This document shows, piece after piece, positions 3,381 to 18,721 of a DNA stretch of 64,000 bases. Both the position numbers and the translations under genes were made by a program. The stretch is taken from NCBI GenBank assembly GCA_018826295.1, contig JAHJZX010000021.1:1-64000 (forward strand). The letters are read 5' to 3'. The notes beneath the pieces are model-generated. The model worked only from the letters and a program-made list of their open reading frames with translations. It ran no database searches and was not told where the DNA came from. How positions within the stretch are numbered: position 1 is the stretch's first letter; each line of letters opens with the position of its first letter. Origin of the DNA: Gammaproteobacteria bacterium (GTDB taxonomy: Bacteria; Pseudomonadota; Gammaproteobacteria; Enterobacterales; Alteromonadaceae).

Positions 3381-3815
3381 ATGAGTAGCGCAAAATTAAA
3401 GTTTTATCAGAAAGAGGCGACAAAAACGCGGCTTGCTGATGCGTCTCCTTATCAGATCATTCAGATGCTGATGGCTGGTGTAATGGATAATCTGGCTTTG
3501 GCAAAAGGTGCTTTACAGCGTAAAGACTTTGAGCAAAAAGCCATCAGTTTATCTAAAGCTTCAGCTATCCTGGAATCATTGCGGTCTTGTTTGGATGAAG
3601 CTGTGGCACCTGAACTGGCAGGCAACTTATACGCCTTATACAGCTACATGATTGAACGTCTTATTGACGCCAGTGTTGAAAAGGACACTACCACCGCTAT
3701 TGATGAAGTGTCCAATTTATTTCGTGAAATAAAGTCAGCCTGGGATGAAATCCCACCAAGTGCACAGCAACATGCAGAATCACAGCGACAGGTTGCCCAT
3801 GCCAATGCCGGATAA
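3381..3815 (+). CDS. fliS: Flagellar export chaperone FliS
   Basis: FliS binds the C-terminal helices of newly made flagellin in the cytoplasm, prevents premature polymerisation and delivers it to the FlhA export gate. The 144-residue helical protein contains the family core: a tyrosine-containing N-terminus (DASPYQIIQMLMAGVMDNLA), followed by ALQRKDFEQKAISLSKASAI and a central YALYSYMIERLIDAS helix. The length is usual. AAGGAG precedes the start. Its last codons overlap the next gene. Confidence 0.94.
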   Translation: MSSAKLKFYQKEATKTRLADASPYQIIQMLMAGVMDNLALAKGALQRKDFEQKAISLSKASAILESLRSCLDEAVAPELAGNLYALYSYMIERLIDASVEKDTTTAIDEVSNLFREIKSAWDEIPPSAQQHAESQRQVAHANAG

Positions 3816-4111: not shown

Positions 4112-6187
4112 ATGACAGAGCTGGAACAACTGCTGCAACAAGCAGAGGAAACCTTTGCTGCGTTGATGAAAAAAAACGAGCGGGAACGTGTTTTTGCGGT
4201 TAAATCACGTCTGTGTTTTGAAAAAAATATCCGAGCGTTTGAAAAGTACTATCCTGACATTGCAAAAACAATTAAAGAATATACGCCCGACGATGATTTT
4301 GAGATTTTAGTTACAAGCAGTGGCGCGGGCAATTTTATTCCCAAACGTATTGGCGTACCAATTTATTCAGACGATCCTCTGCAACAAACTAGGCTGCAAC
4401 TGGAGAAAAACACTTCTAAAGGTTATTACAGCCTGACTAAGTACGGCTTTGGTGTATCCAGCAAGGATATGCGTATTCACAGCCGCTATATGGCTAAACT
4501 GGACAACAAAATTAAAAGCGTTGCGGACACTAATCCTGAGCCGCTTGCCGCATTGCCTACACATTTCCCTACCGCGATGATTTTTGGTGTTGGTCTTGGT
4601 TATGTAATCACCGAGCTGCTTTCAAAGCATACATTTGATTACATTTTTATTACTGAACCCGATTTGGAAATCTTTTATGCCAGTTTGTTCTGTACGGACT
4701 GGGCTGGCGTTATTGAAAAAGTGGACAGCGCTGGCAACACGTTATTTTTGCAAATTGGTTTAGATCTCAATGAGTTTTTCTCGTCGGTGTATCAAATATC
4801 GATGGATATAGGTGCCTACTCGTTAATCAGGGCATTTTGCTATCAACATTACCCATCAGAAGAGGTAAATCAACAGATAGCAGAATTTTTTAACCGCTAT
4901 TATGAAATTCAGGCCGGATATGGTTTTTACAATGACGCCATTACCGGTCTGGCCCACTGCTTAATGAATTATAAAAGCAAAGCTGAGTTTTTTACCTTGC
5001 CCTCAGTACGCAAGCATATTGATATGCCAGTGGTTGTTGTAGGTAATGGCCCGTCTTTAGATGACGGCGCCGAAGTGCTGCGTGAAATTCAGAATGATGT
5101 GATTATTTTTGCAGCCGGTACAGCACTTGGCTCACTGGCCAAACATGGTATAAAAGCTGATTTTCATGTGTTGGTTGAGCGCCCGAAAAGTACTTACGAT
5201 GCCTTGCTGGATAGCTTTGACCCGTCTTATTACGCCGATCTAAACCTGCTCGCCGTTGATGTGATGTACCCCGATGTCATTGATATGTATAAATGGGCAG
5301 GGCTGGCACTAAAAGGTCCTGAAGCATCAACGGTATTTACACAGTTTTTATTGTTGGCAGACGAAAAGAAACTTATCCCTTCTTTGCCATATTCAGGGCC
5401 ACTAGTCGCTAACACGGCTTTGTCGTATGCCATGTCGATGGGCTTTAACGAGATATACTTATTTGGTGTCGACAACGGCTATCTTGGTGATAAAACCCAC
5501 TCGGCAAACAGCATTTATGCCAGTAATGAAAACTATAAAAAAATCATCGATAAAGGTGCAATTTACAAACTGAAGGGCAACCTTACGCAAGACGTTATGT
5601 CGACTAACTTATTGAAGTTGGCGCATAAATTTATTGAAAGCCTGCTTAGAATGGACAAAAAGGTCTTTGTATATAACGTGGGTGAAGGTGCTTTTATCAA
5701 GGGAGCCTTACCGGTTAAAGAAGAAGATGTGTTTATCAGCAAACGACCGGTCAAAAAAGCGGACATTATTGAACAGGTGAAGCAAAAGTTTTTCGTCAAA
5801 CATCAATTCAATGTCACACCTGAACGTCTTGGTTTTGACCAGTTTGATGAATTATGTGACTTTTTGAATGCAATAGCGAATGAACCCTATGAAACGCGGC
5901 AGCAAGCCTCTGATTTGCTGAAACGCCAGGCGCGATGTGTTTATGCGTATCGCAGCTCTCACCACAGCCACCTGTTCCATATTATTAAAGGATCCTTATT
6001 ATACTTCCACAGCCCTATGCTTACCGTGTTGTATCAGTATCAGGATGATAAATTATCTCTGGACAGCTTCACTGAGCTGCTGGCTATCTGGCGAGATTAT
6101 GTTGATGAGATGAAACGGGACTATCGTCTGAGCTGGTATAAAAAATGTGACTGGGGCATGGACATGGAATTTTTAACCGCAGGGTAA
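4112..6187 (+). CDS. maf: Maf family flagellin glycosyltransferase (DUF115)
   Basis: Motility-associated factor (Maf) proteins are thought to transfer nonulosonic acids (pseudaminic or legionaminic) to Ser/Thr of flagellin in the cytoplasm before export. The 691-residue product has the MAF/DUF115 core at about 285-500. It includes VVVGNGPSLDDGAEVLREI (the nucleotide-sugar fold shared with 6-hydroxymethylpterin diphosphokinase-like enzymes), the segment HVLVERPKSTYD and NEIYLFGVDNGYLG. N- and C-terminal helical regions flank it, as is usual. It follows the fliT-like gene by four bases and precedes a sugar biosynthesis operon. This context makes CMP-legionaminic acid its likely donor and the flagellin at 419 its likely acceptor. 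Confidence 0.9.
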   Translation: MTELEQLLQQAEETFAALMKKNERERVFAVKSRLCFEKNIRAFEKYYPDIAKTIKEYTPDDDFEILVTSSGAGNFIPKRIGVPIYSDDPLQQTRLQLEKNTSKGYYSLTKYGFGVSSKDMRIHSRYMAKLDNKIKSVADTNPEPLAALPTHFPTAMIFGVGLGYVITELLSKHTFDYIFITEPDLEIFYASLFCTDWAGVIEKVDSAGNTLFLQIGLDLNEFFSSVYQISMDIGAYSLIRAFCYQHYPSEEVNQQIAEFFNRYYEIQAGYGFYNDAITGLAHCLMNYKSKAEFFTLPSVRKHIDMPVVVVGNGPSLDDGAEVLREIQNDVIIFAAGTALGSLAKHGIKADFHVLVERPKSTYDALLDSFDPSYYADLNLLAVDVMYPDVIDMYKWAGLALKGPEASTVFTQFLLLADEKKLIPSLPYSGPLVANTALSYAMSMGFNEIYLFGVDNGYLGDKTHSANSIYASNENYKKIIDKGAIYKLKGNLTQDVMSTNLLKLAHKFIESLLRMDKKVFVYNVGEGAFIKGALPVKEEDVFISKRPVKKADIIEQVKQKFFVKHQFNVTPERLGFDQFDELCDFLNAIANEPYETRQQASDLLKRQARCVYAYRSSHHSHLFHIIKGSLLYFHSPMLTVLYQYQDDKLSLDSFTELLAIWRDYVDEMKRDYRLSWYKKCDWGMDMEFLTAG

Positions 6188-6211
6188 AGTTTTCCGTTGT
6201 CTGACCGATAT
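6185..6211 (+). promoter_or_regulatory. Candidate FliA (sigma28) promoter of amidotransferase operon
   Basis: TAAA at 6185-6188 (overlapping the maf stop codon), a 15-base spacer and ACCGATAT at 6204-6211 match sigma28 at 10 of 12 consensus bases. It lies 40 bases before the next start codon. The exact 15-base spacing in a 64-base gap makes chance less likely, though read-through from upstream is also possible. Confidence 0.55.
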
Positions 6212-6251
6212 ATCTAATAACAGCTAATTTTTAAGCACCTGCGAGGATACT

Positions 6252-7571
6252 ATGGCACTTATTAACAGGCCTTCAGCGGTAGATCTGTCTCTGTTTGCAC
6301 CGGATGCACCGTTCCAGCCAACAAAATACGGACTGCCATCTCAGGTGTGCTTCTGTAAAAAATGCGTAATTTCCAACCAGAGGCCAAACTCGGCGGTTGA
6401 ATTTCGCCATACCAAAGATTCAGTTAAGAAAACCATTTTCTTTAATGAAGATGGCATTTGTGATGCTTGCCGCTTTGCCGAAAATAAACATCAGGGTATC
6501 GACTGGGAAAAGCGCGAGCATGAACTTTTAGCTTTATGCGAAAAATACCGTAGCCGCAATGGTAGCTATGACTGTCTGGTACCCGGTTCAGGCGGCAAAG
6601 ACAGTTTTTATACTGCTCATATGTTGAAGTATAAATACGGCATGAATCCGTTAACGGTTACCTGGGCGCCACACAAGTACACCGAGTGGGGCTGGCGCAA
6701 TATGCAGTCATGGATCCATGCCGGTTTTGACAACTACCTAATGACGCCAAATGGCCGTATTCACAGCTTATTGACCCGTCTGGCGGTTGAAAAACTGTTC
6801 CACCCGTTTCAGCCGTTTATATTAGGGCAGAAAAATCTGGCGCCTAAAATGTCTGCGCTTTTTAACATCCCGTTGGTGTTCTACGGAGAGAATGAAGCTG
6901 AGTACGGTAATCCTATTGCCGATGCTGATAAAGCTAAACGTGATATCAGCTATTTCTCTGAGCAGAATTACGACGATATTTATCTTGGCGGTGTGTCAGT
7001 GCGTGAATTAGAGCAGGATTTTGGCGTACGTCGCTCAGAATTGCTGCCTTATTTACCAATTCGTCCTGAAGAGATAGCAAACAGCAATATGGAAGTGCAC
7101 TATCTTGGTTACTACCTGAAATGGCACCCACAAAGCTGCTACTACTATGCGGTTGAACATGGTGGCTTTGAAGCTTCACCAGAGCGCACTCCAGGCACTT
7201 ATAGTAAGTACAACAGTATTGATGACAAAATTGATGATTTCCATTACTACACTACTGGCATTAAGTTTGGTATTGGCCGCGCTACCTATGATGCGGCGCA
7301 GGAAATTCGCTCTGGTGATATCAATCGTGAAGAAGGTGTGGCACTGGTGAAACGTTTTGATCTGGAGTTTCCTGATCGTTTCGCAGAGGAAATTTTCTCT
7401 TACTTGTCAATTCGAGAAAAAGAATTACCGCAGGCAGCGACTCAGTTTGAGCAGCCAATTCTGGACCGTGCCTATTTCGATACGCTGGCCAATACTTTCC
7501 GTTCGCCACACTTGTGGCAATATGAAAACGGTAAGTGGCAGCTGCGTCACACGGTGTGGAATGGCAAATGA
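6252..7571 (+). CDS. N-acetyl sugar amidotransferase (PseA/PtmG/WbpG family)
   Basis: Members of this ATP-dependent family turn an acetamido group on a sugar into an acetamidino group. PseA acts on pseudaminic acid, PtmG on legionaminic acid and WbpG on a mannuronic acid precursor. The 439-residue protein has two Cys pairs (C35/C38 in FCKKCV, C70/C73 in CDACRF), which probably bind zinc, and an ATP-pyrophosphatase loop SGGKDS at 113-118. GAGG precedes the ATG. It overlaps the HisF-like gene by four bases (ATGA). With HisF- and HisH-like partners it resembles the WbpG/HisF2/HisH2 trio of Pseudomonas aeruginosa. The substrate is probably a legionaminic acid derivative or precursor, inferred from the neighbouring operon. 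Confidence 0.85.
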   Translation: MALINRPSAVDLSLFAPDAPFQPTKYGLPSQVCFCKKCVISNQRPNSAVEFRHTKDSVKKTIFFNEDGICDACRFAENKHQGIDWEKREHELLALCEKYRSRNGSYDCLVPGSGGKDSFYTAHMLKYKYGMNPLTVTWAPHKYTEWGWRNMQSWIHAGFDNYLMTPNGRIHSLLTRLAVEKLFHPFQPFILGQKNLAPKMSALFNIPLVFYGENEAEYGNPIADADKAKRDISYFSEQNYDDIYLGGVSVRELEQDFGVRRSELLPYLPIRPEEIANSNMEVHYLGYYLKWHPQSCYYYAVEHGGFEASPERTPGTYSKYNSIDDKIDDFHYYTTGIKFGIGRATYDAAQEIRSGDINREEGVALVKRFDLEFPDRFAEEIFSYLSIREKELPQAATQFEQPILDRAYFDTLANTFRSPHLWQYENGKWQLRHTVWNGK

Positions 7572-8329
7572 GTAAACAGGTGCGGGTGATCAGTCGGCTG
7601 GATATTAAAGCGCCCAATCTGATAAAAGGTATAAGACTGGAAGGTTTAAGGGTGATGGGCGATCCGCAAACCTTTGTCTGCCAATACTATGCCCAGGGCA
7701 TTGACGAAATATTGTATATGGATGTCGTTGCCAGCCTGTATGAACGCAGCAGTTTGCATGATGTAATCCGCCATGCAGTTGAGCGGGTATTTGTTCCGAT
7801 CACGGTTGGTGGGGGTATTCGCTCGCTGCAGGATGCCACTGAAATCCTAAGCCTTGGTGCTGACAAAATTGCCATTAATACTGCAGCAGTAAAACAGCCA
7901 GAACTCATCGCTGAAATTGCTCGTCAGGCAGGCTCTCAGGCAGTTGTTTTATCCGTTGAATGCAAACGGGAGCAACAGGGCTGGCAAGTGTATACCGACA
8001 ATGGTCGTGAAAAGACCGGTAGAGATGTTATTGATTGGGTTAAGCAAGCCCAGCAACTGGGTGTTGGTGAGATACTGTTGACGTCGGTCGACCGGGAAGG
8101 GACCCGCAAAGGCTATGATCTGGAATTGCTGCAGGCGGTATCCGATGCTGTACAGTTACCCATTATTGCCAGTGGTGGTTTTGGCGAGCTGATACATGCC
8201 AGTCAGGCTGCTGCAGTGAAAAATGTCACTGCTGTCGCTGTTGCTGATGGCCTGCATTACAAGCGGTTTACTGTAAAACAAATAAAACAGCAGCTGTCGG
8301 CTGATGGCTTTGCGGTGAGGACAGTATGA
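7568..8329 (+). CDS. HisF-like subunit, sugar amidination
   Basis: This 253-residue TIM-barrel protein belongs to the HisF cyclase family, which receives ammonia through its barrel from HisH. Visible HisF features are RLDIK near residue 12 (catalytic Asp kept), ITVGGGIRS at 79-86, TSVDREGT and ASGGFGE. The position of the second catalytic Asp of histidine HisF (the segment IDAKR) reads SVECKR here, so Asp is replaced by Glu131. The loop after LDIK also lacks the usual KDGRVVKG. These changes and the context argue against imidazole-glycerol-phosphate synthesis and for channelling ammonia to the amidotransferase at 6252. ATG 7568 overlaps the previous stop, and an upstream in-frame start is inside that gene. 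Confidence 0.85.
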   Translation: MSKQVRVISRLDIKAPNLIKGIRLEGLRVMGDPQTFVCQYYAQGIDEILYMDVVASLYERSSLHDVIRHAVERVFVPITVGGGIRSLQDATEILSLGADKIAINTAAVKQPELIAEIARQAGSQAVVLSVECKREQQGWQVYTDNGREKTGRDVIDWVKQAQQLGVGEILLTSVDREGTRKGYDLELLQAVSDAVQLPIIASGGFGELIHASQAAAVKNVTAVAVADGLHYKRFTVKQIKQQLSADGFAVRTV

Positions 8330-8976
8330 TGATCCAGGTCATAGACACCAAGACCAATAATCTGAGCAACGTATTAAGAGCGCTCTCTGCCTGCAAGTTG
8401 GAATTTGAAGTTATTTATACCGCTGCAGAGCTACGCGGTGGCAGTGTAGTGGTATTACCAGGTGTGGGTGCTTTTGCCAGTTGCATGACATCGTTGAATG
8501 AAGCAGGCTTTAGTGCCGCATTAAAATCTCATCTGACGCGTGGTGGCAAACTTCTGGGCATTTGTGTCGGTATGCAGGCAATGGCACGTTTCTCGACTGA
8601 GTTTGGTCAGCATGCCGGCCTTGGTTTTTTTGATGCCAAAGTAGAGCATCTGGCTCACACCAGCAATGTCCCGGTTATTACACCTAACGTAAATTGGTTA
8701 CCTTTACAAAGTGAACACGGCCGCTTTGCCGAATTTAACGGTGCGCATGTGTATTTTGTGCACTCTTACCATATGTGCCAGTTCAAAGAGCCGGCACTGA
8801 TTGCCGGTACTGTCGACTACGCGGGTCAGTCGGTTTGCGCTATTGTTGATCAGGGCCCGGTGATTGGCTTTCAGTTTCATCCGGAAAAAAGCGGTGAAAT
8901 TGGTCTGCGTATTTTGGCACACAGCATTGCGCTGTTACAAAACACCGAGCCAATGCCGCTTAGCCACACAGCGTAA
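8326..8976 (+). CDS. HisH-like glutamine amidotransferase, sugar amidination
   Basis: This class I glutamine amidotransferase hydrolyses glutamine and passes ammonia to its partner barrel. The 216-residue protein has the full triad: nucleophile Cys80 in GICVGMQ, and His185 and Glu187 in GFQFHPEKSGEIG. LPGVGAF at 44-50 forms the oxyanion region. It overlaps the HisF-like gene by four bases, which suggests equimolar translation. No other histidine genes are near, so it most likely serves the PtmG/WbpG-like enzyme rather than histidine synthesis. Its last 17 bases overlap the end of the convergent ptmA-like gene. Confidence 0.88.
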   Translation: MMIQVIDTKTNNLSNVLRALSACKLEFEVIYTAAELRGGSVVVLPGVGAFASCMTSLNEAGFSAALKSHLTRGGKLLGICVGMQAMARFSTEFGQHAGLGFFDAKVEHLAHTSNVPVITPNVNWLPLQSEHGRFAEFNGAHVYFVHSYHMCQFKEPALIAGTVDYAGQSVCAIVDQGPVIGFQFHPEKSGEIGLRILAHSIALLQNTEPMPLSHTA

Positions 8977-9724
8977 AACCATCATCCACCACAATATTTT
9001 GCCCGTTGGTAAAACGGGCATGATCTGACAGTAAGAAAGCTATAGCGCCGGTTACATCTGCTGCATCTAGCATGCCTTTACCCAGTGTTTTGGCTTGATA
9101 CTTTTGCAAAAACGGCTCTGCCTGACCGTCAAGAATACCGCCCGGGCTGACCAGATTAACCCGAAAGCGGCTGTCGGCAACGTAGGCTGCTGTGTATTTA
9201 CTTAGGTGGATCAGCGCCGATTTAATGGCCACATATTCAACAGGCATTGTCATGCTGGTGTTAGCATAGACGTCAAATCTTGGCGCAACGACACCATATA
9301 CCGATGCCAGATTCACCAGTGAAAACTCGCGCGGCTGTTGTTTAAAGTAAGCGGCACATTGCTGCATAAACAAAAAGGCACTGCCAAGGTTAAGCGACAA
9401 ATTGTCATTAAAGCTTTGCAGGCTGACATCGAAAAAGTGCTTGCCGTAGCTTTTGTTACGCGGATAGCTGCAATTGACCGCGCCATCCGGCTGATATTTT
9501 AACAGCAGTGCCTGAATGGCATCGGCGTCTTGTATATTCAGTGTTGCCAGCGTTAGCTTTGAATTATCTGTCACTACGCCATCATCTTGCAGGCGCTTTT
9601 GCAGGTTCGCGATGTCTAAATCACTGGCTATTACAGCGGCACCCTGTGCAAGGCAGGTTTTTACTACTGAGCGGCCAATCAGCCCGCCCGCACCGGCTAT
9701 TAACACCGTTTTATTATTCAGCAT
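8960..9724 (-). CDS. ptmA: Short-chain dehydrogenase, PtmA-like
   Basis: This is a 254-residue classical SDR oxidoreductase. The nucleotide-binding motif is AGAGGLIGRSV near the N-terminus. The Ser is in NLASVYG and the YxxxK pair is in EYVAIKSAL. The C-terminus (VVDDGFTLCG) is typical of the family. In Campylobacter jejuni, PtmA acts with PtmF in forming glucosamine-6-phosphate for the GDP-linked legionaminic acid route. That role is transferred here from the gene context. I chose ATG 9724, nine bases after GAAGG; the in-frame TTG at 9733 abuts that site and is less likely. It is the last gene of the minus-strand operon. Confidence 0.8.
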   Translation of the reverse strand: MLNNKTVLIAGAGGLIGRSVVKTCLAQGAAVIASDLDIANLQKRLQDDGVVTDNSKLTLATLNIQDADAIQALLLKYQPDGAVNCSYPRNKSYGKHFFDVSLQSFNDNLSLNLGSAFLFMQQCAAYFKQQPREFSLVNLASVYGVVAPRFDVYANTSMTMPVEYVAIKSALIHLSKYTAAYVADSRFRVNLVSPGGILDGQAEPFLQKYQAKTLGKGMLDAADVTGAIAFLLSDHARFTNGQNIVVDDGFTLCG

Positions 9725-10412
9725 CTTGTTCAACCTTCAGAATGGCCTCTGCCAGCATAAAATCGTACATATCGTCGATGTCTACCGCACGTTGCTTTGG
9801 CACCTCAATACTGGTGATGCGGCCGCTAAACAGCGCATTGTGTTGCAGAATAAAGTCTGGCCTGGCGGCGTAAACCACAGTCGTTATATCGTAAACAGCC
9901 GGCGCATCCTGCCGGCGGTGTACGCCATTGGGTAGCTGGCTGACCAGTTGCACCATGCCATCATCGGTGCGTGTCACCATATTAAAATACGGGTTGCGGT
10001 TGGCCGGTGTTACCGCCAGGCATAAATCTGCATTGCTTTGCCGCAGTTGGTGAATAGCGTTGCTAACATCCTCAGCGCTTCGTAGCGGACTGGTTGCCGG
10101 CAGGCTGACGAAGCTATCAAAATTGCCATAGTGTTGCTGCACATAAGTAATGGCATGCTGCCAGGCTGCCCACTCGGGGGCCGTGTCGCTGGCAAGCTCT
10201 GCCGGGCGCGCTATTACTGTGACACCGGCCGCTAAAGCGCTTTTGGCAATGTCATTACAATCCGTTGAGACAAAAATCCTGGCTATGTCAGCAACCTGCT
10301 TTGCTACGTCAATGGAGTAGTGCAGTAGCGGTTTGCCAAGTAGCGGTTTTATATTTTTGCCGGGTAAACCTTTTGAACCACCCCTGGCAAAGATAAAGGC
10401 AACACAGGTCAT
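9714..10412 (-). CDS. legF: CMP-legionaminic acid synthetase (NeuA/LegF family)
   Basis: This enzyme activates the nonulosonic acid with CTP, giving the CMP-sugar used by Maf. The 232-residue protein starts with the cytidylyltransferase signature FIFARGGSKGLPGKNIKPL. It also has VSTDCNDIA and LPATSPLRSAEDV, the core of the acylneuraminate cytidylyltransferase fold. It corresponds to C. jejuni PtmB/LegF. Legionaminic rather than sialic acid specificity is inferred from legB and legC in the same operon. It overlaps the oxidoreductase gene upstream by four bases and ptmA downstream by eleven. Confidence 0.88.
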   Translation of the reverse strand: MTCVAFIFARGGSKGLPGKNIKPLLGKPLLHYSIDVAKQVADIARIFVSTDCNDIAKSALAAGVTVIARPAELASDTAPEWAAWQHAITYVQQHYGNFDSFVSLPATSPLRSAEDVSNAIHQLRQSNADLCLAVTPANRNPYFNMVTRTDDGMVQLVSQLPNGVHRRQDAPAVYDITTVVYAARPDFILQHNALFSGRITSIEVPKQRAVDIDDMYDFMLAEAILKVEQDAE

Positions 10413-11392
10413 AGTGTCTCCACTGGTGCGATGGTTTTTGCCTGCTCAATAAGCTTAATCAGCGATGCGGCGCTGTTCAGGGCTGCTTTGCAGCGATTTT
10501 TTTGCTGCACTTTTTGCCAAAAGGCTTTAAGCATATCGAGGTACATGCTGTTTTTGTCATAACTGTCGTCTTGATACAAGACTTGCTCTTTGTCATGTTG
10601 ATATAAGTGCAGAGTGTTAGCGACAAGATCCCACTCTAAGCGGCCGTGCTGGGCAATAATACTGCAGCGGCGAAATGCGCGTTGCTGCAAAAAATCCAGA
10701 TGCACAAATGCGCTGATATGGTCGGCCGTAGTTAAGAACAGCTCACTGATATCTTCAACATCGAGCTCAAGTAAGCCACTTGTTCGGTTGCGGGCATAGC
10801 GAAGCGTAAGAGAGCCAAATAACCATTGCAGGTAATCAAGCTCATGGCTTAGCTCCAGCAGGGCTCCGCCACCAAGCGCTTGCCTGGCAGACACTGAATA
10901 ACGGTAATCTTTACCCGGGCGCCAGTGTGGCAGGTACTGACCAACCTGAGCGATGACGCTAAAAATCCTGCCCAGATGTCCTGCTTCTACTATCGCTTTT
11001 AGTTGCTGGGCAGCTGGCAAAAAACGCAGACAGTAACCAACATCCACTATGCTATTGGGAAAGCGCTGAGCGGTTGCGAGCAGCTGATGAGTTTGCTCTG
11101 CTGTGGCGCTAAGCGGCTTTTCTACTAATACGGCAATGCCGGCAGCTAACAGCTGCTCGGTATGCTGTTGATGCAGACTGGCCGGAGATGCAACAATTAC
11201 AAACTCAGGCTGTGCACTTAATAACTGCAGCATACTGCTGGCAGTGACATAATCAGGCAACGTGTTACTGGAGGTTGCATTGGCTGCAGCACTGGCACTA
11301 ACAGCCAGCAAAGTGGCGTCAGGAAACAACAGATGCAGGTTTGCCAGATGGCGCAGGCCAATGCTGCCTAAACCAATTACCCCAAGTTGCAT
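10409..11392 (-). CDS. ptmF: Gfo/Idh/MocA family oxidoreductase, PtmF-like
   Basis: This is a 327-residue NAD(P)-dependent oxidoreductase. The N-terminal Rossmann motif is GVIGLGSIGLRH, the family catalytic segment VEKPLSAT is at about 91-98, and there is a C-terminal alpha/beta domain. Its place between the cytidylyltransferase and the nucleotidyltransferase matches ptmF in the Campylobacter legionaminic acid locus, where PtmF and PtmA lead from fructose-6-phosphate to glucosamine-6-phosphate. The substrate here is not shown by sequence. The start codon shares one base with the stop of the upstream gene (TAATG). Confidence 0.75.
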   Translation of the reverse strand: MQLGVIGLGSIGLRHLANLHLLFPDATLLAVSASAAANATSSNTLPDYVTASSMLQLLSAQPEFVIVASPASLHQQHTEQLLAAGIAVLVEKPLSATAEQTHQLLATAQRFPNSIVDVGYCLRFLPAAQQLKAIVEAGHLGRIFSVIAQVGQYLPHWRPGKDYRYSVSARQALGGGALLELSHELDYLQWLFGSLTLRYARNRTSGLLELDVEDISELFLTTADHISAFVHLDFLQQRAFRRCSIIAQHGRLEWDLVANTLHLYQHDKEQVLYQDDSYDKNSMYLDMLKAFWQKVQQKNRCKAALNSAASLIKLIEQAKTIAPVETL

Positions 11393-12450
11393 TAATGCAG
11401 CCCCAGATTGATCACGTCAATTTGCGCCCGCTGGTAATCGTCCATCCGGCCGATATCCAGCCAGTATTCGTGAATAGGGAACATCAGCACATTCTTGTCG
11501 TTGCCAATATTTTGCTCGAGCAAAGTCGGCATATCAATACGCTGATTGGCTTTCACCTGTTTGCGTACGGCTGGTGATACAACATAGATACCGGCATTAA
11601 CAAACAACCGTTGTATCGGTTTTTCCACCATGCCGGTAACCTTGTTGCCTTCACCGTTGATGACACCGAATGGGATTTGGTATTCGTAATCGCGCACACA
11701 CATGGTGGCATCAGCCTGCTGTTTATTATGAAATTGCAGCAATTGCTCAAAGTCTATTGTGGTGAGCAAGTCACCATTCATCAGGATCAGTGGTAAATCC
11801 GGTACTGAATCCGGCAGCAGTCCCAAAGCTCCGCCGGTACCGAGCGGTTCCTGCTCGTAGATGTAGGTAATGCTGACATTCCAGCGTGAACCATCACCAA
11901 AATAGGCCTGAATTTGCTCTGGCATATAGTGTAAAGAGATATAGAAATTGTGAAAGCCGGCGCGGATAAAGCTGTTTAAAGCGATCTCGAGGATCGGTTT
12001 ATCGCCTACTTTTAGCATGGGTTTAGGGCAGGCATCGGTAAGGGGTTTTAACCGGCTGCCAAAACCGCCTGCCATTAAAAATACCGGGTTGTCATACAAG
12101 ACAGCATCTTCAGCTGTTTGCAGTGTCTCCAGACCAACGACTTTACCGGCTTTAATCAGCGGAATTGACAGCAGTTTTTTCCGCGTCATCAGCTTTACCA
12201 GCTCACGACGGGGCGTACCAAACTCGGCGGTCAGCGGCGATGGGTTCATCACTTCGCTTACTGTGCTTTGCAAAGTACAGTTACGCAATAAGCCGCGGCG
12301 GATATCACCGTCGGTAAGAACACCGAGTAAGGTGTCAGTAGTGTCTACCACCAACGCGATACGCAGCGCTTCTTTATCCAGCAATAACAGCGCATCGCGG
12401 ATGCTACTGTCAGGAGCAATGGCAGTGTTTTTCCAGCTGGTACTCATCAT
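11392..12450 (-). CDS. ptmE: CBS-domain sugar nucleotidyltransferase (PtmE-like)
   Basis: The 352-residue protein joins two CBS repeats (about 1-118, including GVLTDGDIRRGLL and KLLSIPLIKAGKVVGLETL) to a nucleotidyltransferase domain (about 122-352) that begins FLMAGGFGSRLKPLTDACPK. This is the layout of C. jejuni PtmE, a glucosamine-1-phosphate guanylyltransferase making GDP-glucosamine for legionaminic acid. CBS repeats usually bind adenosine nucleotides and may tune activity. GDP specificity is inferred from family and operon, not from a diagnostic residue I can point to. It starts six bases after the acetyltransferase gene ends. Confidence 0.82.
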   Translation of the reverse strand: MMSTSWKNTAIAPDSSIRDALLLLDKEALRIALVVDTTDTLLGVLTDGDIRRGLLRNCTLQSTVSEVMNPSPLTAEFGTPRRELVKLMTRKKLLSIPLIKAGKVVGLETLQTAEDAVLYDNPVFLMAGGFGSRLKPLTDACPKPMLKVGDKPILEIALNSFIRAGFHNFYISLHYMPEQIQAYFGDGSRWNVSITYIYEQEPLGTGGALGLLPDSVPDLPLILMNGDLLTTIDFEQLLQFHNKQQADATMCVRDYEYQIPFGVINGEGNKVTGMVEKPIQRLFVNAGIYVVSPAVRKQVKANQRIDMPTLLEQNIGNDKNVLMFPIHEYWLDIGRMDDYQRAQIDVINLGLH

Positions 12451-12456
12451 GCAGCC

Positions 12457-13095
12457 TCATTCAATTTTAATGACCGACTTAGCGCCATAAATTTTCTGAT
12501 TATCTAGCAAGTTACGTACCACGGTACTGCCTGCAGCAACAGTGGTATTGCTACCAAGTGTCAACCCTTGTATCACAGTAGCACCGGCGCCAATGTAACT
12601 GTTTTCACCACAACAGACGCCGCCACATAAGATGGCGCCGGGGCTGACAATAGTATGACGCTCCAGTACACAGTCATGTTCAACTATGGCGCCGGTGTTG
12701 ATAATAACGTTATCGGCAATGTTGGCGTCAGCATTAATAATAACGCCAGGCATAATTTGTACGCCTTCACCCAGCGTACAATGAGGATCTATCAGCGCAT
12801 CACTGGAGATAACCGAAGCAAAGCGGTAGCCCAGGGCAGAAAAACGGTTAAAGATGTCGCGGCGGGCACTGCTGCCTGGCAAAGCGCCTACACCATTGAT
12901 CAGCAGTGTTTTCTCTGGTGGATACTGCAATACCGCACTGTCATCGCCGAGAAAGGGGATCAAAGCAAACATAGCTGATTGTGGTGGTTGCAAGGCACAG
13001 ACACCGGTAATCACAGTATGCTGCTTAACAAGAATGGACAGCAGCACTTTGGCATGACCTCCGGCGCCAAGCAGGATCAGATGCTTAGTCTGCAA
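12457..13095 (-). CDS. legH: Sugar N-acetyltransferase (NeuD/PglD/LegH-like)
   Basis: This trimeric left-handed beta-helix acetyltransferase would acetylate the 4-amino sugar made by LegC. The N-terminal Rossmann-like part starts LILLGAGGHAKVLLSIL. The C-terminal half has hexapeptide repeats with the probable catalytic His in IVEHDCVLERH, then GAGATVIQG. I chose the TTG at 13095 because AAGGAG lies six bases upstream and the protein then begins just before the conserved motif, as in NeuD proteins. ATG 13110 has no ribosome binding site. The gene overlaps legI by 11 bases. Confidence 0.8.
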   Translation of the reverse strand: MQTKHLILLGAGGHAKVLLSILVKQHTVITGVCALQPPQSAMFALIPFLGDDSAVLQYPPEKTLLINGVGALPGSSARRDIFNRFSALGYRFASVISSDALIDPHCTLGEGVQIMPGVIINADANIADNVIINTGAIVEHDCVLERHTIVSPGAILCGGVCCGENSYIGAGATVIQGLTLGSNTTVAAGSTVVRNLLDNQKIYGAKSVIKIE

Positions 13096-14158
13096 GCAAA
13101 TCTCCTTCATTAAAGTCACTTTTGGCAACAGTGCCTAACAGCTCCCAATAGCGCTGTGGGCTGATGCCACTGCCGGGTCTTTTACAGGCAATATGAGTGG
13201 CGGTCAGGGTTTCACCGGCGCGGATGGCACAAGCGGCTACCAGACTCTTGCGGGCAACGGCTTTATTGGCAAGCTCTGACGGCGCCGGCCGTTTAATGCC
13301 ATCACCCAGCGCCTGGTTAATGTCACGTATTGCACTCACCATAGCCGTTAGCTCGTCAGGCTCCAGCGAGGCCTTGTGATCAGGGCCAGGCAGGGTTTTA
13401 TCCAGCGTAAAATGTTTTTCTAATACTGTAGCACCGCGGGCAGCAGCGGCTATGGCAATATGTATACCCGCGCTATGATCTGAGTAGCCTACCGGCAGAC
13501 CAAAGGCCGCTGCCATTGTATCCATCGCTGTTAAATTAATATCGGTCGGTGGTGCAGGGTATTCTGTCGTGCAGTGCAGTAGAGTGACTTTCTGGCGCAG
13601 AGCGCGTTGGCCTTGCTCACTGGCATACGCCTGATTAAATGCCAATTGTGATGGTTTGGCATCGGCAGATGCCGTCAGGCCAAACGCAATAACACCCAGT
13701 GCAGCTTCAATTTCTGCCAGATTAGCCATACCGGTTGATACTATCAGTGGCAAGCCAGCTTTGGCATGTTGTAGCACAAAAGGTGCGTTGGTAATTTCAC
13801 CTGAGGGCAGTTTCAGCCGGTTTAGCTTAAGATGCCCGAGTAAAAACTGCAGGCTTTGCTCATCAAAAGCGGTAGATAAAAAGCCGATACCGCGGCTGGC
13901 ACAATATGCCTGCAGCCGTATATGGGCATCGTGACTTAGCTCCAGCCGGCGCAACATTTGCAATTGCGACTCGGCCTGGCCAGTGTTTTTGCGCTGATAG
14001 CTGGCTTGCTGTGCGCCGGCAGTGGCTAACGCATTAGCGTTAAAGGTTTGAAATTTAACAATGTCGGCCCCGGCAGCTACCGCTGCATCTACTAAGGCAA
14101 ACGCCAGCTTCTCTTCACCATTATGGTTAACGCCGGCTTCGGCAATAATCAATGTCAT
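13085..14158 (-). CDS. legI: Legionaminic acid synthase (NeuB/LegI family)
   Basis: It condenses 2,4-diacetamido-2,4,6-trideoxymannose with phosphoenolpyruvate to give legionaminic acid. The 357-residue protein has a NeuB TIM barrel at about 1-270 (IIAEAGVNHNG, VKFQTFNANAL, LPSGEITNAPF, STGMANLAEIEAAL, HCTTEYPAPPTDINL, GYSDHSAGI, KHFTLDKTLPGPDH). A C-terminal SAF (antifreeze-like) domain follows at about 290-357. It matches C. jejuni PtmC/LegI in length. The choice of legionaminic over N-acetylneuraminic or pseudaminic acid comes from legB, legC and legG in the operon. It overlaps legG by four bases. Confidence 0.9.
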   Translation of the reverse strand: MTLIIAEAGVNHNGEEKLAFALVDAAVAAGADIVKFQTFNANALATAGAQQASYQRKNTGQAESQLQMLRRLELSHDAHIRLQAYCASRGIGFLSTAFDEQSLQFLLGHLKLNRLKLPSGEITNAPFVLQHAKAGLPLIVSTGMANLAEIEAALGVIAFGLTASADAKPSQLAFNQAYASEQGQRALRQKVTLLHCTTEYPAPPTDINLTAMDTMAAAFGLPVGYSDHSAGIHIAIAAAARGATVLEKHFTLDKTLPGPDHKASLEPDELTAMVSAIRDINQALGDGIKRPAPSELANKAVARKSLVAACAIRAGETLTATHIACKRPGSGISPQRYWELLGTVAKSDFNEGDLLAD

Positions 14159-15309
14159 AAAGCGGCTCCGGGCAGCTCATAAAAGGGTTTTACCGGATCA
14201 AACTGCAGTTGTTTAATCAGCTGTATAATTTTGCCGCTGGTATTGCCCTGGCCATACGGATTGGAAGCAAAATCGGCAGTACTGTTAACAGCCGTTGCAA
14301 TACCGTGCTGAATAGCCGCAGTATCGGCCCGGCAATGCAGCACAGACGCCGCCGCCAGCCGGCCTTGTTGCCGGCTGCCAATGTTTACCGTGGGCACATT
14401 AAACGCCGGTACTTCAATAATTCCGCTGGACGAATTGCCAATAACGGCAGCGGCGTGTTTTACCGCACTCAGGTAGCGCTGTTGCCCCAGTGACTTTATC
14501 GCTAGCACCCGTGTTGGCTGCGCGGCAGCATAATGTTGCAGACGCTGAATAATTTGCCTGCCACCTTCATCGGCATTTGGGTAGGTCAGGATGATCTGGT
14601 GATCTTTAAACTGGTCCAGCGCGTTTAGCAGGGCATCGAAACTGGCCAGCGGTGGTTCATTTGCCAGCGTAACCGGGTGATAAGTGACGACAAAATAGGG
14701 CTGCTGCAGCTTAAAGCTCAGCGCTTCGGCTAACTGTGGCAGACTGAGCAATTTGCTGCGGCTCAGGTGGTCTAAACCTATAGCTCCTACGTTATGTACC
14801 CGCTCGGGCGCTTCGCCCAATTGGATCACCCGCCGGCGATATGTCTCAGTGGAGGTAGCATGCAAATAACTGAGTTTGGTAATGGCATGGCGGATAGCGT
14901 CATCGGTTGCGCCTTCAGTAATTTCGCCGCCGTGTATATGCAGCACAGGAATTTTCATTAACATAGCCGCCTGCGCCGCTGCCAACGTTTCAAAACGGTC
15001 ACCAAGCAGCACCAATACATCAGGCTTTAATCGTGACAAACTGTCCGCCAGACCAATCAGTGCCAGGCCCATACTTTTTACTGTGCCAACGCTGCTGTCA
15101 GATGACAGCAGCATTTCAATTTTCTCAGTGATGTCAAAACCATCTTTATCGATTTGCTGATAGGTGTTGCCAAACTCCGGCGATAAATGGCTGCCAGATA
15201 CGATAAGTTGCAACTGCAGTCCGGCATCGGCTTTTATGTCGTGCAGCAGCCAGTACAGCAGGCCGTATTCGGCCCGGGTGGCGGTAAATACGGCAACTTT
15301 TTTCGGCAT
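14155..15309 (-). CDS. legG: NDP-diacetylbacillosamine 2-epimerase, hydrolysing (NeuC/LegG family)
   Basis: This enzyme removes the nucleotide and inverts C2 to give 2,4-diacetamido-2,4,6-trideoxymannose for LegI. The 384-residue GT-B fold protein begins VAVFTATRAEYGLLYWLL. It contains VLLGDRFETLAAA, HIHGGEITEGATDDAIRHAI and a C-terminal site segment VIGNSSSGIIEVPAF, all hallmarks of NeuC-type UDP-GlcNAc 2-epimerases. The family corresponds to C. jejuni PtmD/LegG. It starts with a one-base overlap with legC (TAATG) and ends with a four-base overlap with legI. Confidence 0.9.
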   Translation of the reverse strand: MPKKVAVFTATRAEYGLLYWLLHDIKADAGLQLQLIVSGSHLSPEFGNTYQQIDKDGFDITEKIEMLLSSDSSVGTVKSMGLALIGLADSLSRLKPDVLVLLGDRFETLAAAQAAMLMKIPVLHIHGGEITEGATDDAIRHAITKLSYLHATSTETYRRRVIQLGEAPERVHNVGAIGLDHLSRSKLLSLPQLAEALSFKLQQPYFVVTYHPVTLANEPPLASFDALLNALDQFKDHQIILTYPNADEGGRQIIQRLQHYAAAQPTRVLAIKSLGQQRYLSAVKHAAAVIGNSSSGIIEVPAFNVPTVNIGSRQQGRLAAASVLHCRADTAAIQHGIATAVNSTADFASNPYGQGNTSGKIIQLIKQLQFDPVKPFYELPGAAL

Positions 15310-16454
15310 TACTGGGCCTCCGGTACACTGCTGGGTAAATTAATCAGCCGCAGTGCCAGCTCTTCAGCACATTGCAGCGGGCCGCGCACTGCATGTTTAA
15401 ACGCCGGTAGCTGGTGCATCAGTTGCCATACTGGCCGGGTCATTACACCGGCGTCATTACTGTGCTGCAGTAAGTCGTCGCGACGTTGTTGATCCGGACA
15501 AAGCACGGCGTTTAACCAGAAGTTGGAACTGCACTGTGCCGGTTCATCTATAAACTGGTAGTCGGACCCGGCAAAAAAAGCTTTGTATTGCATAGCAAGT
15601 TCACGTTTTTGCTGTAAAAAGTATTGCAGTGACTCCATTTGTGCACAACCAAGCGCTGCGTTTAAGTTCGGCAAGCGGTAATTAAAGCCGGGTTCATCAT
15701 GATAAAACTCCCAGCGGTGAGCCACTTTGGCCGTGGTGGTAAGATGTTTAGCGCGGCTGCCATCTGTTGCGCTGGCACACAGCAGCATACCACCACCGCC
15801 GGTGGTAATTATTTTATTGCCGTTAAAGCTAAGCGCGCCAAAGTGGCCCAAAGTGCCGGTATGCTGGCCTTTATAAAAGGAGCCCAGACTTTCAGCGGCG
15901 TCTTCGACCAGTATCAGTTGCCATTGTTGACAGATCTGCAGCAGTTCATCCAGTGCCGCCGGGTGGCCAAAGGTATGCATCGGCATGACGGCCTTAATAC
16001 GCTGGCCGTTGCTTTTCAGGTAGCAGCCTTGTGCATCAGTGGCGGCCTGTTGCTGTAGAAAATTCAGTAATGCTTGCGGGCACAGCGACAGGGTAGTGGC
16101 GCTGACATCAACAAATACCGGTTCTGCGCCCATATGGTACAAAGCATTGCAGGTAGCAACAAAGGTTAGTGGCTGGGTTATCACCAAATCGCCGGCTTGC
16201 ACGCCAGCCATATACAGTGCGCTATGCAGGGCTGCAGTGCCATTTACCGTTGCCACGGCTTTACTGCAGCCGGTAAAGTGTTCTATTTGCTGCTCAAATT
16301 GATCCACGTATTTGCCAACACTGGAGACAAAGGTGCTGGTAATGGTGTCGGCCAGATAGCGTTGTTCATTACCAACAAAACGGGGCGCATGCAGCGGAAT
16401 AGCGGCATTGGTTTGATAAAGCTGACGTACAAAGTGAATAATTTTAGCGTTCAT
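15309..16454 (-). CDS. legC: PLP-dependent 4-aminotransferase (LegC family)
   Basis: It adds the 4-amino group to the 4-keto-6-deoxy sugar nucleotide made by LegB, with pyridoxal phosphate and an amino donor. The protein is a DegT/DnrJ/EryC1 aminotransferase of 381 residues. The PLP lysine is Lys214 in SFNGNKIITTGGGGML, and Asp185 in VEDAAESLG binds the pyridine nitrogen. PRFVGNEQRYL near the start is typical of LegC. I use ATG 16454; an in-frame GTG at 16472 adds six residues that look unconserved. It follows legB by 20 bases. Confidence 0.88.
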   Translation of the reverse strand: MNAKIIHFVRQLYQTNAAIPLHAPRFVGNEQRYLADTITSTFVSSVGKYVDQFEQQIEHFTGCSKAVATVNGTAALHSALYMAGVQAGDLVITQPLTFVATCNALYHMGAEPVFVDVSATTLSLCPQALLNFLQQQAATDAQGCYLKSNGQRIKAVMPMHTFGHPAALDELLQICQQWQLILVEDAAESLGSFYKGQHTGTLGHFGALSFNGNKIITTGGGGMLLCASATDGSRAKHLTTTAKVAHRWEFYHDEPGFNYRLPNLNAALGCAQMESLQYFLQQKRELAMQYKAFFAGSDYQFIDEPAQCSSNFWLNAVLCPDQQRRDDLLQHSNDAGVMTRPVWQLMHQLPAFKHAVRGPLQCAEELALRLINLPSSVPEAQ

Positions 16455-16474
16455 TAACAGCTCAGGCTCCACGG

Positions 16475-17665
16475 TTACATTTTACTGTCCAGATAACGGC
16501 CGGTTTCTTTGTGGCCAAACTGTGGCAGCATCTGCTGAAACAACTCAACTAAATCCGTTTTTGTCCATTGCCTTGCCTGCCTCAGCGCGGCAATACGCTG
16601 TACAAAGTGTTGCAGAATGTCAGGCTGCGCCTGCGGCCGATTTTTAACAATACCTAACTGAGCAAAACGTTGCATATCTAAGCGCTCGTCGGCGGTGAAA
16701 AACTCTTCAAAGTCTTTTTCGCCGGTAGTGTCGCTGCTGCTAAATACACAAGGCCATTTGTTTGCTTTGCTTAGCTGCTGCACCTGCTCGCGCGCCTGCT
16801 GTTCGTTGTCACACACCACGGCACTATAGCCACGCTGCTGCAGGTATTTCAGTGCTATGTCTGCAAAAGTGATCAGGTGCAGTTTTTCACTCAGTTTAGG
16901 AAAGAAAATATCGCCGTTTTCGCCGAATATACATGACATAAGGCACAGTTCACCGGATTCTTGTGGCGTAACAAAATACCGTTTTATATCGTTAGGTGCT
17001 GCTATAGGTTGTTGTTTTTCCAAACGTTGATTAAAGCCATGCAGCAAAGAGCCATCAGAAAATGCCACATTGGCAAAACGTGCTGTTGAGATACACAATT
17101 CTGTGCTGTGGTGCTGCAAAAACAACTCCATGATGCGCTTGGAGGCACCCATCATGTTAACCGGATTCGCTGCTTTATCGGTCGACACACAAAAATACTT
17201 TTTACAGCCGTGTTGTTTAGCCAGCCTTATGGTTTTATCGGTATTGAGGATATTGACCTCTATCATCCGCATCAGGGTGTAGGGGTCTTTTTCACTACGC
17301 ACATGTTTTAGTGCAGACAGGTTCAGCACATAATCGTACTGACCGTCTGCCGCGTAAAAGGCATCAAATTCTACCGAGCCGATGTCCAGCGCGTAGGTCT
17401 GAAAATCGCCGTTGATATAGCCCAGGCCAGAGCGGATATCCCGCACCAGTTCAACCAGGTTATTTTCACTAATATCCACGACATGCAGTTTTTCCGGCTG
17501 GCGGCGGAAGATTTCTTTGCAAACGGCCTGACCAATAGAGCCGGCGCCACCTAATACCAGAAAACGGCTGTGCGACACGGCATGGCTCAGTCTGGCTTCG
17601 TGGCTGGCAATATCGTCAGTAAATAAAGGCTGGCTGCGGCCTATCAGCGCTAAAATATCTGTCAC
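16475..17665 (-). CDS. legB: NDP-GlcNAc 4,6-dehydratase (LegB)
   Basis: LegB makes the 4-keto-6-deoxy intermediate that starts the legionaminic acid branch. The 396-residue protein is an extended SDR of the CapD/PglF type. It has the NAD loop GGAGSIG at 39-45, SALKHVRSEKDPY, the active-site segment STDKA at 161-165 and MGASK at 172-176 with Met in place of the SDR Tyr, as in this dehydratase group. Whether the nucleotide is UDP or GDP cannot be read from sequence; PtmE downstream favours GDP. The start is GTG 17665, eight bases after GGAG. It is the first gene of a nine-gene operon with a FliA-type promoter. Confidence 0.87.
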   Translation of the reverse strand: MTDILALIGRSQPLFTDDIASHEARLSHAVSHSRFLVLGGAGSIGQAVCKEIFRRQPEKLHVVDISENNLVELVRDIRSGLGYINGDFQTYALDIGSVEFDAFYAADGQYDYVLNLSALKHVRSEKDPYTLMRMIEVNILNTDKTIRLAKQHGCKKYFCVSTDKAANPVNMMGASKRIMELFLQHHSTELCISTARFANVAFSDGSLLHGFNQRLEKQQPIAAPNDIKRYFVTPQESGELCLMSCIFGENGDIFFPKLSEKLHLITFADIALKYLQQRGYSAVVCDNEQQAREQVQQLSKANKWPCVFSSSDTTGEKDFEEFFTADERLDMQRFAQLGIVKNRPQAQPDILQHFVQRIAALRQARQWTKTDLVELFQQMLPQFGHKETGRYLDSKM

Positions 17666-17708
17666 CTATGGGTCTCCGCGAGGCGATAAAACGGTGTGCT
17701 TAGCCGTT

Positions 17709-17735
17709 GTATCGGCGCTACGGGCAAAAACTTAA
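17709..17735 (-). promoter_or_regulatory. Candidate FliA (sigma28) promoter of leg operon
   Basis: On the minus strand TTAA (17735-17732), a 15-base spacer and GCCGATAC (17716-17709) match the sigma28 consensus at 10 of 12 positions. The -10 octamer is identical to that of the flagellin promoter at 265-272. It lies 43 bases upstream of the legB GTG, giving a short leader with GGAG. This would couple sugar synthesis to flagellin expression. Confidence 0.65.
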
Positions 17736-17926
17736 CTGTTTTGCCCCGATTTACTCAGATGCTATATCAACTATATCAGGCATTTAAATAACATTCTGCT
17801 TTAAATCTGCCGCTATGGCTGAAAGGCTGGGGGCTAACAGCTATAATACAGAAACGCGATTAGGTATGGCTGGCTTAGTCATATCAACCGCCGTGTAGCA
17901 GATGAATTCACGTAGCGGAGCAGATG
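17736..17926 (+). promoter_or_regulatory. Upstream region of short flagellin-like gene
   Basis: This is the rest of the gap between the divergent legB and the flagellin-like gene. A TATAAT at 17842-17847 is the only clear -10 hexamer on the plus strand. The -35 position 17 bases upstream (CTGAAA) is poor. I found no FliA or sigma54 match in this orientation. GGAG at 17917-17920 is the ribosome binding site for ATG 17927. Confidence 0.3.
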
Positions 17927-18721
17927 ATGAAAATTGGCAATCAACCCCAGGGGCAGGAAAGGCTGAATAGCTTACTGCAAACCCAACAAAAGCAAGCCGA
18001 AAAGCTGGCCAGTGCCAAACGGATTAACAGCGCAGCAGACGATGCTGCCGGGCTGCAAATAGCCAACCGGCTAACCAGTACAGTAAATGAAGCGGTGCAA
18101 GGGCAACGCAATTTGTATGATGGCATAGGCCTGGCGCAGGTGTACGAGCAAAGCCTGCAAAACATAAATAATGATTTAACCGAAGTAAATACGCTGGCAG
18201 TAGCTGCTGGCAATGGTATTTACACTGACGCTGATCGACAGGCATTGCAGCAGCAGGCGCAGGGTTATCTTGATAACGCGCAAAATACGCTGCAAACCGC
18301 CAGTTTCGGCGGCGTGTCGCTGTTTAACGATAAAGATATTGCCTTTAACAGCGGCCAGAGCAATCTAAACCTGAAGGTTGAAGATGTTGGCGCAGCGCTG
18401 ACGTCGCAAAATGTGTTTAGCATTGATCTCACCACACAAGCCGGCGCTGCCGCCGCGAATACAACGCTGACGCAGGCCACAGAGTATGTCAGCGGCTTGC
18501 AAGCTAATGCCGGTGCCAGCATTAACAGCTTTGCGGCGCAGGCGCGTAACCTGAATAACCAGCAGATTAATCAGACGCAGGCCAGAAGCCGGATAGAAGA
18601 TGCCGATTTTGCCGATGCCAGCGCTAAAAAAGCCTCGGCCGATGTGCTGGCAAATGCCTCCATCGCTGTGCGCGCTCAGGCGCGGATCAGCCAGGAGCAG
18701 ACGCTGCAGTTATTGGCTTAA
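17927..18721 (+). CDS. Atypical short flagellin-like protein
   Basis: The 264-residue protein has both flagellin ends but lacks the usual first residues (MALxVNTNxxSL). It starts MKIGNQPQGQERLNSLLQTQ and then joins the D1 signature AKRINSAADDAAGLQIANRL. The C-terminal part has ARSRIEDADFADASAKKASA and ends QTLQLLA instead of SLLQG. It is rich in Gln and Ala and its central domain is almost absent. It may be a minor or specialised filament subunit, or a flagellin-like regulator next to flrA. I chose ATG 17927 (six bases after GGAG) over ATG 17924 (three bases). It is a lone gene ended by a terminator at 18732. Confidence 0.8.
   Translation: MKIGNQPQGQERLNSLLQTQQKQAEKLASAKRINSAADDAAGLQIANRLTSTVNEAVQGQRNLYDGIGLAQVYEQSLQNINNDLTEVNTLAVAAGNGIYTDADRQALQQQAQGYLDNAQNTLQTASFGGVSLFNDKDIAFNSGQSNLNLKVEDVGAALTSQNVFSIDLTTQAGAAAANTTLTQATEYVSGLQANAGASINSFAAQARNLNNQQINQTQARSRIEDADFADASAKKASADVLANASIAVRAQARISQEQTLQLLA

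Follow-up and report, generated by a model that had tools for sequence, protein, structure and literature searches.

Predicted FliA promoters before the legionaminic acid and amidotransferase operons of an Alteromonadaceae flagellar locus

Introduction

When flagellin carries a sugar, what keeps the supply of the sugar in step with the supply of the protein? The question is raised by a flagellar locus in a stretch of 64,000 nucleotides (nt) from a Rheinheimera-type gammaproteobacterium of the Alteromonadaceae (assembly GCA_018826295.1, contig JAHJZX010000021.1, positions 1 to 64,000; hereafter the window), with which contig C48 of a 4.57-Mb genome begins. Genes predicted to make a legionaminic acid (Leg), an amidotransferase operon and a gene for a motility accessory factor (Maf) lie inside this flagellar locus, flanked by fliS and fla2-flrABC. 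In several bacteria, flagellin is misassembled without its sugar, so that the two supplies have to be kept in balance. A first-pass annotation of the window had proposed that both glycan operons are read by the flagellar sigma factor FliA (sigma28), which would time sugar synthesis with flagellin synthesis. We examined this proposal in the window, in its genus, by which we mean a group of 31 genomes including that of the window, and in loci of other genera.

Results and Discussion

Two FliA-type sites precede the glycan operons

For scoring we used the sequence TAAAGTTT-N11-GCCGATAA, equal to TAAA-N15-octamer, which we take to be the FliA consensus. The predicted FliA promoter of the amidotransferase operon wbuX-hisF2-hisH2 lies at 6185..6211 on the plus strand (TAAAGTTT-TCCGTTGTCTG-ACCGATAT, 14/16), with 40 nt from its -10 element to the ATG at 6252, and the Maf stop codon makes up its first three bases. 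The predicted FliA promoter of the leg operon lies at 17735..17709 on the minus strand (TTAAGTTT-TTGCCCGTAGC-GCCGATAC, 14/16), with 43 nt from its -10 element to the GTG of legB at 17665. The first-pass annotation had placed the two sites at these positions, with exact 15-base spacers in both and with a legB -10 octamer identical to that of the flagellin promoter, and each of these details held on rescoring: GCCGATAC recurs in the predicted FliA promoter of flagellin at 246..272 on the plus strand (TAAAGCTT-N11-GCCGATAC, 14/16).

Among 20,000 dinucleotide shuffles of the 250 upstream bases, an equal score was reached by four at legB and by one at wbuX. Over the whole window there are 6 matches with at most three mismatches against 0.45 expected, and none of 100 shuffles reached 6. 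The gene for FliA itself is in the window (40693..41412, plus strand; NF005413, E 1.2e-92, over cut-off), and that for FlgM is on contig C35 of the same genome, preceded by a 15/16 FliA-type site.

Both sites are kept within the genus. Four genus genomes (G000, G004, G008 and G021) have the leg cassette within their flagellar locus, and the legB site is found in all of them, scoring 13/16 in G004 and G008 and 14/16 in G021. Across the four it reads TTAAG(T/A)TT-N11-GCCGATA(C/T), 43-45 nt from the start, and 14 of its 16 motif columns are invariant against 1 of the 11 spacer columns. The wbuX site is found in both genus genomes with the amidotransferase operon and reaches 15/16 in G004; here 15 of 16 motif columns are invariant against 3 of 11 in the spacer. 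G004 has both operons and both sites, and G021 and G008 are without the wbuX operon.

Two surveys, which overlap in that 15 of the 54 loci of the second share an identical legB with loci of the first, addressed Leg loci in other contexts. In the first, 80 named legB loci were scored over up to 250 upstream bases, and only two reached at least 13, those of Rheinheimera pleomorphica and Arsukibacterium (13-14), which are the two with the full set of flagellar neighbours. Marinobacter persicus, with a flagellin match as its only such neighbour, scores 9, and the remaining 77 loci reach at most 12, two of them having only flrB/flrC-type matches that are not specific to flagella. Three Rheinheimera legB copies outside flagellar loci score 10 (R. 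hassiensis), 11 (sp. C24) and 9 (R. faecalis). In the second survey (47 loci newly taken from the order and 7 from the earlier set), a score of at least 13 was found in 3 of 11 loci in flagellar context, all three in the genus, against 0 of 43 outside, where the best was 12. As far as surveyed, the predicted legB site belongs to one lineage.

The proposal that FliA reads both glycan operons is thus supported by promoter hexamers that are conserved amid drifting spacers, by the presence of FliA and FlgM in the genome, and by the lack of any site of at least 13 at the scored legB loci in non-flagellar contexts. We consider it likely, on these comparisons of sequence, that both sites are FliA promoters.

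A proposed common checkpoint for the sugar and its acceptor

The FlgM-FliA checkpoint, the chemistry of Leg synthesis and of WbuX with HisF and HisH, and the cytoplasmic transfer of sugars by Maf are general background to what follows. If the two sites work as predicted, the leg operon, for sugar synthesis, and wbuX-hisF2-hisH2, for amidination, would belong to the late flagellar class, as would flagellin and fliD-fliS-maf with their own predicted sites. Completion of the hook would lead to export of FlgM and release of FliA, and RNA polymerase with FliA would then read flagellin, fliD-fliS-maf, wbuX-hisF2-hisH2 and legB-ptmA together. CMP-Leg, the amidination enzymes, the transferase (Maf) and the acceptor (flagellin) would consequently appear at the same time. 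Transcription from the sites, the extents of the operons, the gating by FlgM and the benefit of co-timing are what we infer from this arrangement. The loci thereby predict that sugar and flagellin are matched at the level of transcription by one FlgM-FliA checkpoint, and that this solution changes with the sugar cassette.

Observations against FliA control and rival explanations

Several observations weigh against reading the two sites as FliA promoters. Genome-wide, the motif occurs at 19 places with at most two mismatches against 9 for a reversed control pattern; the 19 include sites before fliC, fliD, flgM, a DUF5610 gene, wbuX and legB, and several others lie in genes or away from them. 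The motif by itself is therefore weak evidence, and position and conservation carry the case. Matches of 13-14/16 lie inside neuC or neuB at four flagellar leg loci of other genera (L168, L182, L252 and L260), showing that such matches also arise in coding DNA, and the window has further ones inside fliS (3397-3423, 14/16) and, on the minus strand, inside neuD (12710-12736, 13/16). Beyond the genus, none of the eight flagellar leg loci of other genera has a site of at least 13 within 250 nt of legB. Similarly, wbuX was found in six genomes among 118 relatives, two in the genus and four outside, and the upstream regions of the latter four reach only 9-10 (one of the two copies in G085 was scored). 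The four conserved legB loci, moreover, probably represent one cassette lineage and hence about one acquisition rather than four: the four flagellar copies are grouped in a legC tree (support 97) and stand on one side of a quick legB tree of 31 rows (support 82), although an 87-row legB tree does not show them as a clade. Finally, a nearly invariant 30-bp box that precedes the legB site hints at a further input or promoter.

The conservation that the first-pass annotation had suggested looking for in related genomes was accordingly found in part, with both sites kept throughout the genus where their operons lie in the flagellar locus and no site of at least 13 in the legB and wbuX upstream regions scored elsewhere. 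An expectation that a FliA site is general to flagellar leg cassettes was ruled out by the eight loci outside the genus, and the four wbuX genes of other genomes are also without the site. No promoter could be assigned to those eight loci from their upstream sequences. Replacement of the legB gene under a fixed promoter was suggested by the 87-row tree, in which legB of G004 and Arsukibacterium stands beside two non-flagellar Rheinheimera copies, and was dropped given the 31-row legB tree and the legC tree.

The rival that survives best starts from the 30-bp box, TTTAAATGCCTGATATAGTTGANATAGCAT, at 17759..17788 on the minus strand, 23 bp upstream of the legB -35 element. No other stretch of the legB-fla2 intergenic region is as well conserved: aligned over the four leg loci, the box varies in a single column and is constant in 29 of 30. 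It is partly palindromic (ATGC...GCAT). Allowing three mismatches, it occurs once per genome in the four leg-type genomes and in none of the 27 other genus genomes, so that in the genus it accompanies only the flagellar leg cassette. The box might serve as an operator or as a second promoter, and the leg operon could depend mainly on an activator or another promoter there, such as a housekeeping one that is weak and has an extended -10, the FliA site adding little. The best sigma70-type pair in the 150 bases upstream of the window legB, TTTAAA-N16-TATAGC with TG before the -10, does lie wholly inside the box. However, this pair scores only 8/12, a stricter scan found no sigma70-like promoter in the legB direction, and the sole variable position of the box alters the sigma70-type -10 in G004 and G021. 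A model with the box only also leaves unexplained why the sigma28 hexamers are kept while their spacer drifts, and we regard it as unlikely.

Two other roles were considered for the box. It is not solely an element of fla2, as three non-leg loci of the genus (L166, L167 and L169) have fla2 and are without the box. Nor is it a sigma54 site by our scan, which found no GG-N10-GC inside it in the legB direction; at L165, such a pair spans the edge of the box on the other strand. In the fla2 direction, a sigma70-like match of 10/12 (CTGAAA-N17-TATAAT) lies at 17819-17847 on the plus strand, and most of the TATAAT-like part of this match is preserved across the four leg loci.

Somewhat less probable still is that the sites bind FliA with little productive transcription and that wbuX depends on transcription running through from the fliD-fliS-maf operon. 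The wbuX start lies 64 bases past the Maf stop codon, which the site overlaps, and there is no terminator-like match between maf and wbuX, the only one in 5900-6400 being at 6078-6093 inside maf; no sigma70-like match was seen between the two genes either, an absence that also counts in favour of the FliA site. The operon from which run-through would come is itself predicted to be FliA-driven. Against run-through, the -35 and -10 elements of the wbuX site are kept while the spacer drifts, and it cannot account for legB, which is on the opposite strand. Chance matches, of which the 9 genome-wide matches of the reversed control are a reminder, are the least credible explanation by far and are close to refuted by conservation, given the rarity of equally good shuffles, the conserved legB site in four genomes and the failure of legB loci that lack flagellar neighbours to reach 13.

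The sigma-factor class appears to change with the sugar cassette

FliA control, if it holds for the leg cassette, is not the rule at this position in the genus. A fla2 match (E up to 1e-35; loci L184-L211) was found in 28 of the 31 genomes, each time with a sugar gene divergent from it, which is legB in 4, pseB in 23 and a legC-like gene in 1. The pse identity was tested in locus L167 of G015, in which PseB, PseC and PseI are all over their curated cut-offs, and the other pseB genes match the first 250 residues of the L167 PseB at 86-94%.

For sigma54 we scored TGGCACG-N4-TTGCW (GG-N10-GC), which we take to be its consensus. Among the 24 non-leg loci, 21 have a sigma54-like site of at least 8/12 within 200 nt, against 2.8 expected from shuffles, and 14 of these reach at least 9. 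At the pseB loci, 20 of 23 have a site of at least 8, the exceptions being G011, G016 and G023. The exact string CGGCACAGTTTATGCT occurs in 9 of the 28 loci, 51-53 nt before pseB, and the remaining sites are mostly at 33-88 nt, with two farther off. By contrast, sigma28 scores at the four leg loci are 13-14, and their sigma54-like scores all stay below 8. A sigma28-like site scoring 14 also occurs at one non-leg locus, that of G016, at a distance of 138 nt from the start. Fisher tests give p values of 2.4e-4 for sigma28 and 1.7e-3 for sigma54, which treat related genomes as independent and are not strict probabilities. Sigma54-like sites of 9, 10 and 11 of 12 were also found at three loci of other genera (L172, L174 and L175), which are pse-type by weak LegB similarity only. 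Flagellin and fliD retain sigma28-like sites in the three non-leg genus loci that were mapped whole (L166, L167 and L169).

On the simplest reading, the pse cassettes seem to be of the sigma54 class and the leg cassette of the sigma28 class, a swap that rests on motif calls in related genomes. The arrangement in the window is thus lineage-specific, most of the genus holding a pse cassette behind a sigma54-like promoter at the same slot. Going further, we would give about even chances to a model of one slot with exchangeable sugar cassettes, each bringing its own flagellar sigma factor: sigma54, of the hook class, for pse, and sigma28, of the flagellin class, with further input at the 30-bp box, for leg. 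If true, a swap of the sugar would also reset when during assembly the sugar is made. The apparent change of sigma factor with the sugar is more surprising than FliA control itself, and it makes the genus a natural comparison within one slot, with similar flagellar neighbours, two sugars and two predicted sigma factors.

Comparison with known systems

The first-pass annotation knew of no description of such coupling for legionaminic acid genes. That remark stands for Leg genes, as no description of their control by FliA was found in the open-licence literature, but sigma28-class control of flagellin-glycan genes is already known, measured in Clostridioides difficile and predicted in Shewanella. 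The coupling of sigma28, flagellin and glycan is therefore known in itself, and FliA promoters on Leg genes are a variation on it. The comparisons below draw on parts of the cited papers.

In Shewanella oneidensis, the flagellin-modification operon sfmABCDE, which includes a NeuB-domain gene and lies beside a Maf gene, is preceded at 57 bp by a predicted FliA site, and reverse transcription PCR indicates a transcript separate from that of the Maf gene (PMC3765264). The window shares with it a flagellin-modification operon beside a Maf gene and a predicted FliA site; the sugar genes differ (sfm, not leg) and form one operon, whereas the window has two (leg and amidotransferase) and comparative data. 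FliA sites in S. oneidensis are also listed for motY, flaB, flgM and pomA (PMC3120886). In C. difficile, the flagellar glycosylation genes CD0241-CD0244 were measured to depend on SigD: late flagellar and glycosylation genes together are down 11- to 50-fold in a sigD mutant, and the authors, having found no promoter of the genes' own, suggest co-transcription from the fliC promoter (PMC3865298). Both systems tie flagellin-glycan genes to a sigma28-class factor (by prediction in the window) and differ in the glycan and in the lack of an own promoter in C. difficile.

Plesiomonas shigelloides has a Leg cluster between polar flagellar regions, and its flagellins carry Leg (PMC4481668). Leg genes inside a polar flagellar locus are thus common to it and the window, and the parts of that paper at hand describe no sigma28 promoter for them. 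A transcriptome of a P. shigelloides fliA mutant exists, whose main text, in the portion available, names legionaminic acid only in the reference list (PMC11242183). In Helicobacter pylori, the Maf-like gene jhp0106 is under RpoN via the flaB promoter (PMC5368276). It shares with the window a flagellin-glycosylation gene under a flagellar sigma factor, but as a sigma54-dependent gene in an operon with flagellin it is closer in kind to the relatives' pse cassettes than to the window. In Campylobacter jejuni, ptmG of the Leg pathway, like the window genes a regulated Leg gene of a flagellin glycosylation island, differs in being controlled post-transcriptionally, by the small RNA CJnc190, and the sigma28 flaA promoter is termed unrelated to the native ptmG promoter (PMC8687705). 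A primary transcriptome of Alteromonas, with mapped transcription starts, refers to an island for flagellum glycosylation, with nothing on FliA sites there in the sections covered (PMC5864184), and the excerpts of three further papers hold nothing on FliA control of Leg genes (PMC4875605, PMC11187230 and PMC8306008).

Gene content of the locus

The order in the window is flagellin, flaG, fliD, fliS, an open reading frame (ORF) at 3745, a Maf/PseD-type gene, wbuX-hisF2-hisH2, the convergent leg operon, fla2 and flrA-flrB-flrC. Flagellin (419..1414, plus strand) matches the NCBIfam flagellin models. The filament cap gene fliD (1960..3363, plus; NCBIfam FliD, under cut-off) and the flagellin chaperone gene fliS (3381..3815, plus; TIGR00208, over cut-off) are followed by the Maf/PseD-type gene (4112..6187, plus; NF050051 PseD, E 8.7e-22, under the curated cut-off), whose product is presumed to be the nonulosonic-acid transferase for flagellin. 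A predicted FliA promoter of fliD-fliS-(ORF 3745)-maf lies inside flaG (1869..1895, plus, 15/16), and gene order suggests that maf belongs to this operon. Sites of 14-15/16 for the fliD operon and of 13-15/16 before a flagellin gene are found in L163-L167 and L169.

In the amidotransferase operon, all on the plus strand, WbuX is an N-acetyl sugar amidotransferase (6252..7571; TIGR03573, E 1.5e-110, over cut-off). The HisF2/WbuZ-like protein (7535..8329; TIGR03572, E 3.8e-80, slightly under cut-off), the true start of which is probably slightly inside the listed ORF, and the glutaminase HisH2 (8326..8976; TIGR01855, over cut-off) are presumably the partners that supply ammonia to it.

The leg operon is on the minus strand and reads, from its end, ptmA, legF, oxidoreductase, nucleotidyltransferase, neuD, neuB, neuC, legC and legB. 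Its first gene (16475..17665; Pfam PF02719) encodes a UDP-sugar 4,6-dehydratase that we take to be LegB, a name carried over from the first-pass annotation and from knowledge of the pathway and supported by the content of the cluster; its closest named relative is that of R. pleomorphica (87%). It is followed by the aminotransferase LegC (15309..16472; TIGR04181), the UDP-GlcNAc 2-epimerase NeuC/LegG (14155..15309; TIGR03568), the nonulosonic acid synthase NeuB/LegI (13085..14158; TIGR03569) and a NeuD/LegH-type acetyltransferase (12457..13128; TIGR03570), all over cut-off. Then come a sugar-1-phosphate nucleotidyltransferase, presumably of the PtmE type (11392..12450; NCBIfam nucleotidyltransferase matches, those listed under cut-off), an oxidoreductase that we assume to be of the Gfo/Idh type (10409..11392; NCBIfam matches, all under cut-off), a LegF/PseF-type CMP-nonulosonate synthetase (9714..10412; TIGR03584, under cut-off) and the last gene, for a PtmA-type oxidoreductase (8960..9733; NF006619 over and NF050062 PtmA under cut-off). 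The genes expected for legionaminic acid synthesis stand in one run, with dehydratase, LegC, NeuC, NeuB, acetyltransferase, CMP-sugar synthetase and nucleotidyltransferase, suggesting that the product is a legionaminic acid, probably amidinated, which would be transferred to flagellin. The two operons are convergent, and the 3' ends of hisH2 and ptmA share 17 bases (8960-8976), so that the transcripts are predicted to be antisense at their ends.

Divergent from legB, fla2 (17924..18721, plus; Pfam Flagellin_N and Flagellin_C) encodes a flagellin-like paralogue with an unusual N-terminus. No known RNA was found in the window at Rfam gathering scores. The flagellin leader of about 140 nt between the FliA -10 element and the ATG (279-418) is predicted to fold only a little better than shuffled sequences, 21 of 200 of which do as well (z -1.46).

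Further observations

Two leg loci have a fliS-like ORF near legB. In L182, from G085 (12748-13279), it lies between legB and a 13/16 FliA-type site that is 907 nt upstream of legB, and in L247 it lies between flrA and legB; each possibly encodes a dedicated chaperone. The sole perfect FliA match of the genome (16/16; C48:208847-208873, minus strand, locus L001) stands 29 nt before the DUF5610 gene, a candidate late flagellar gene.

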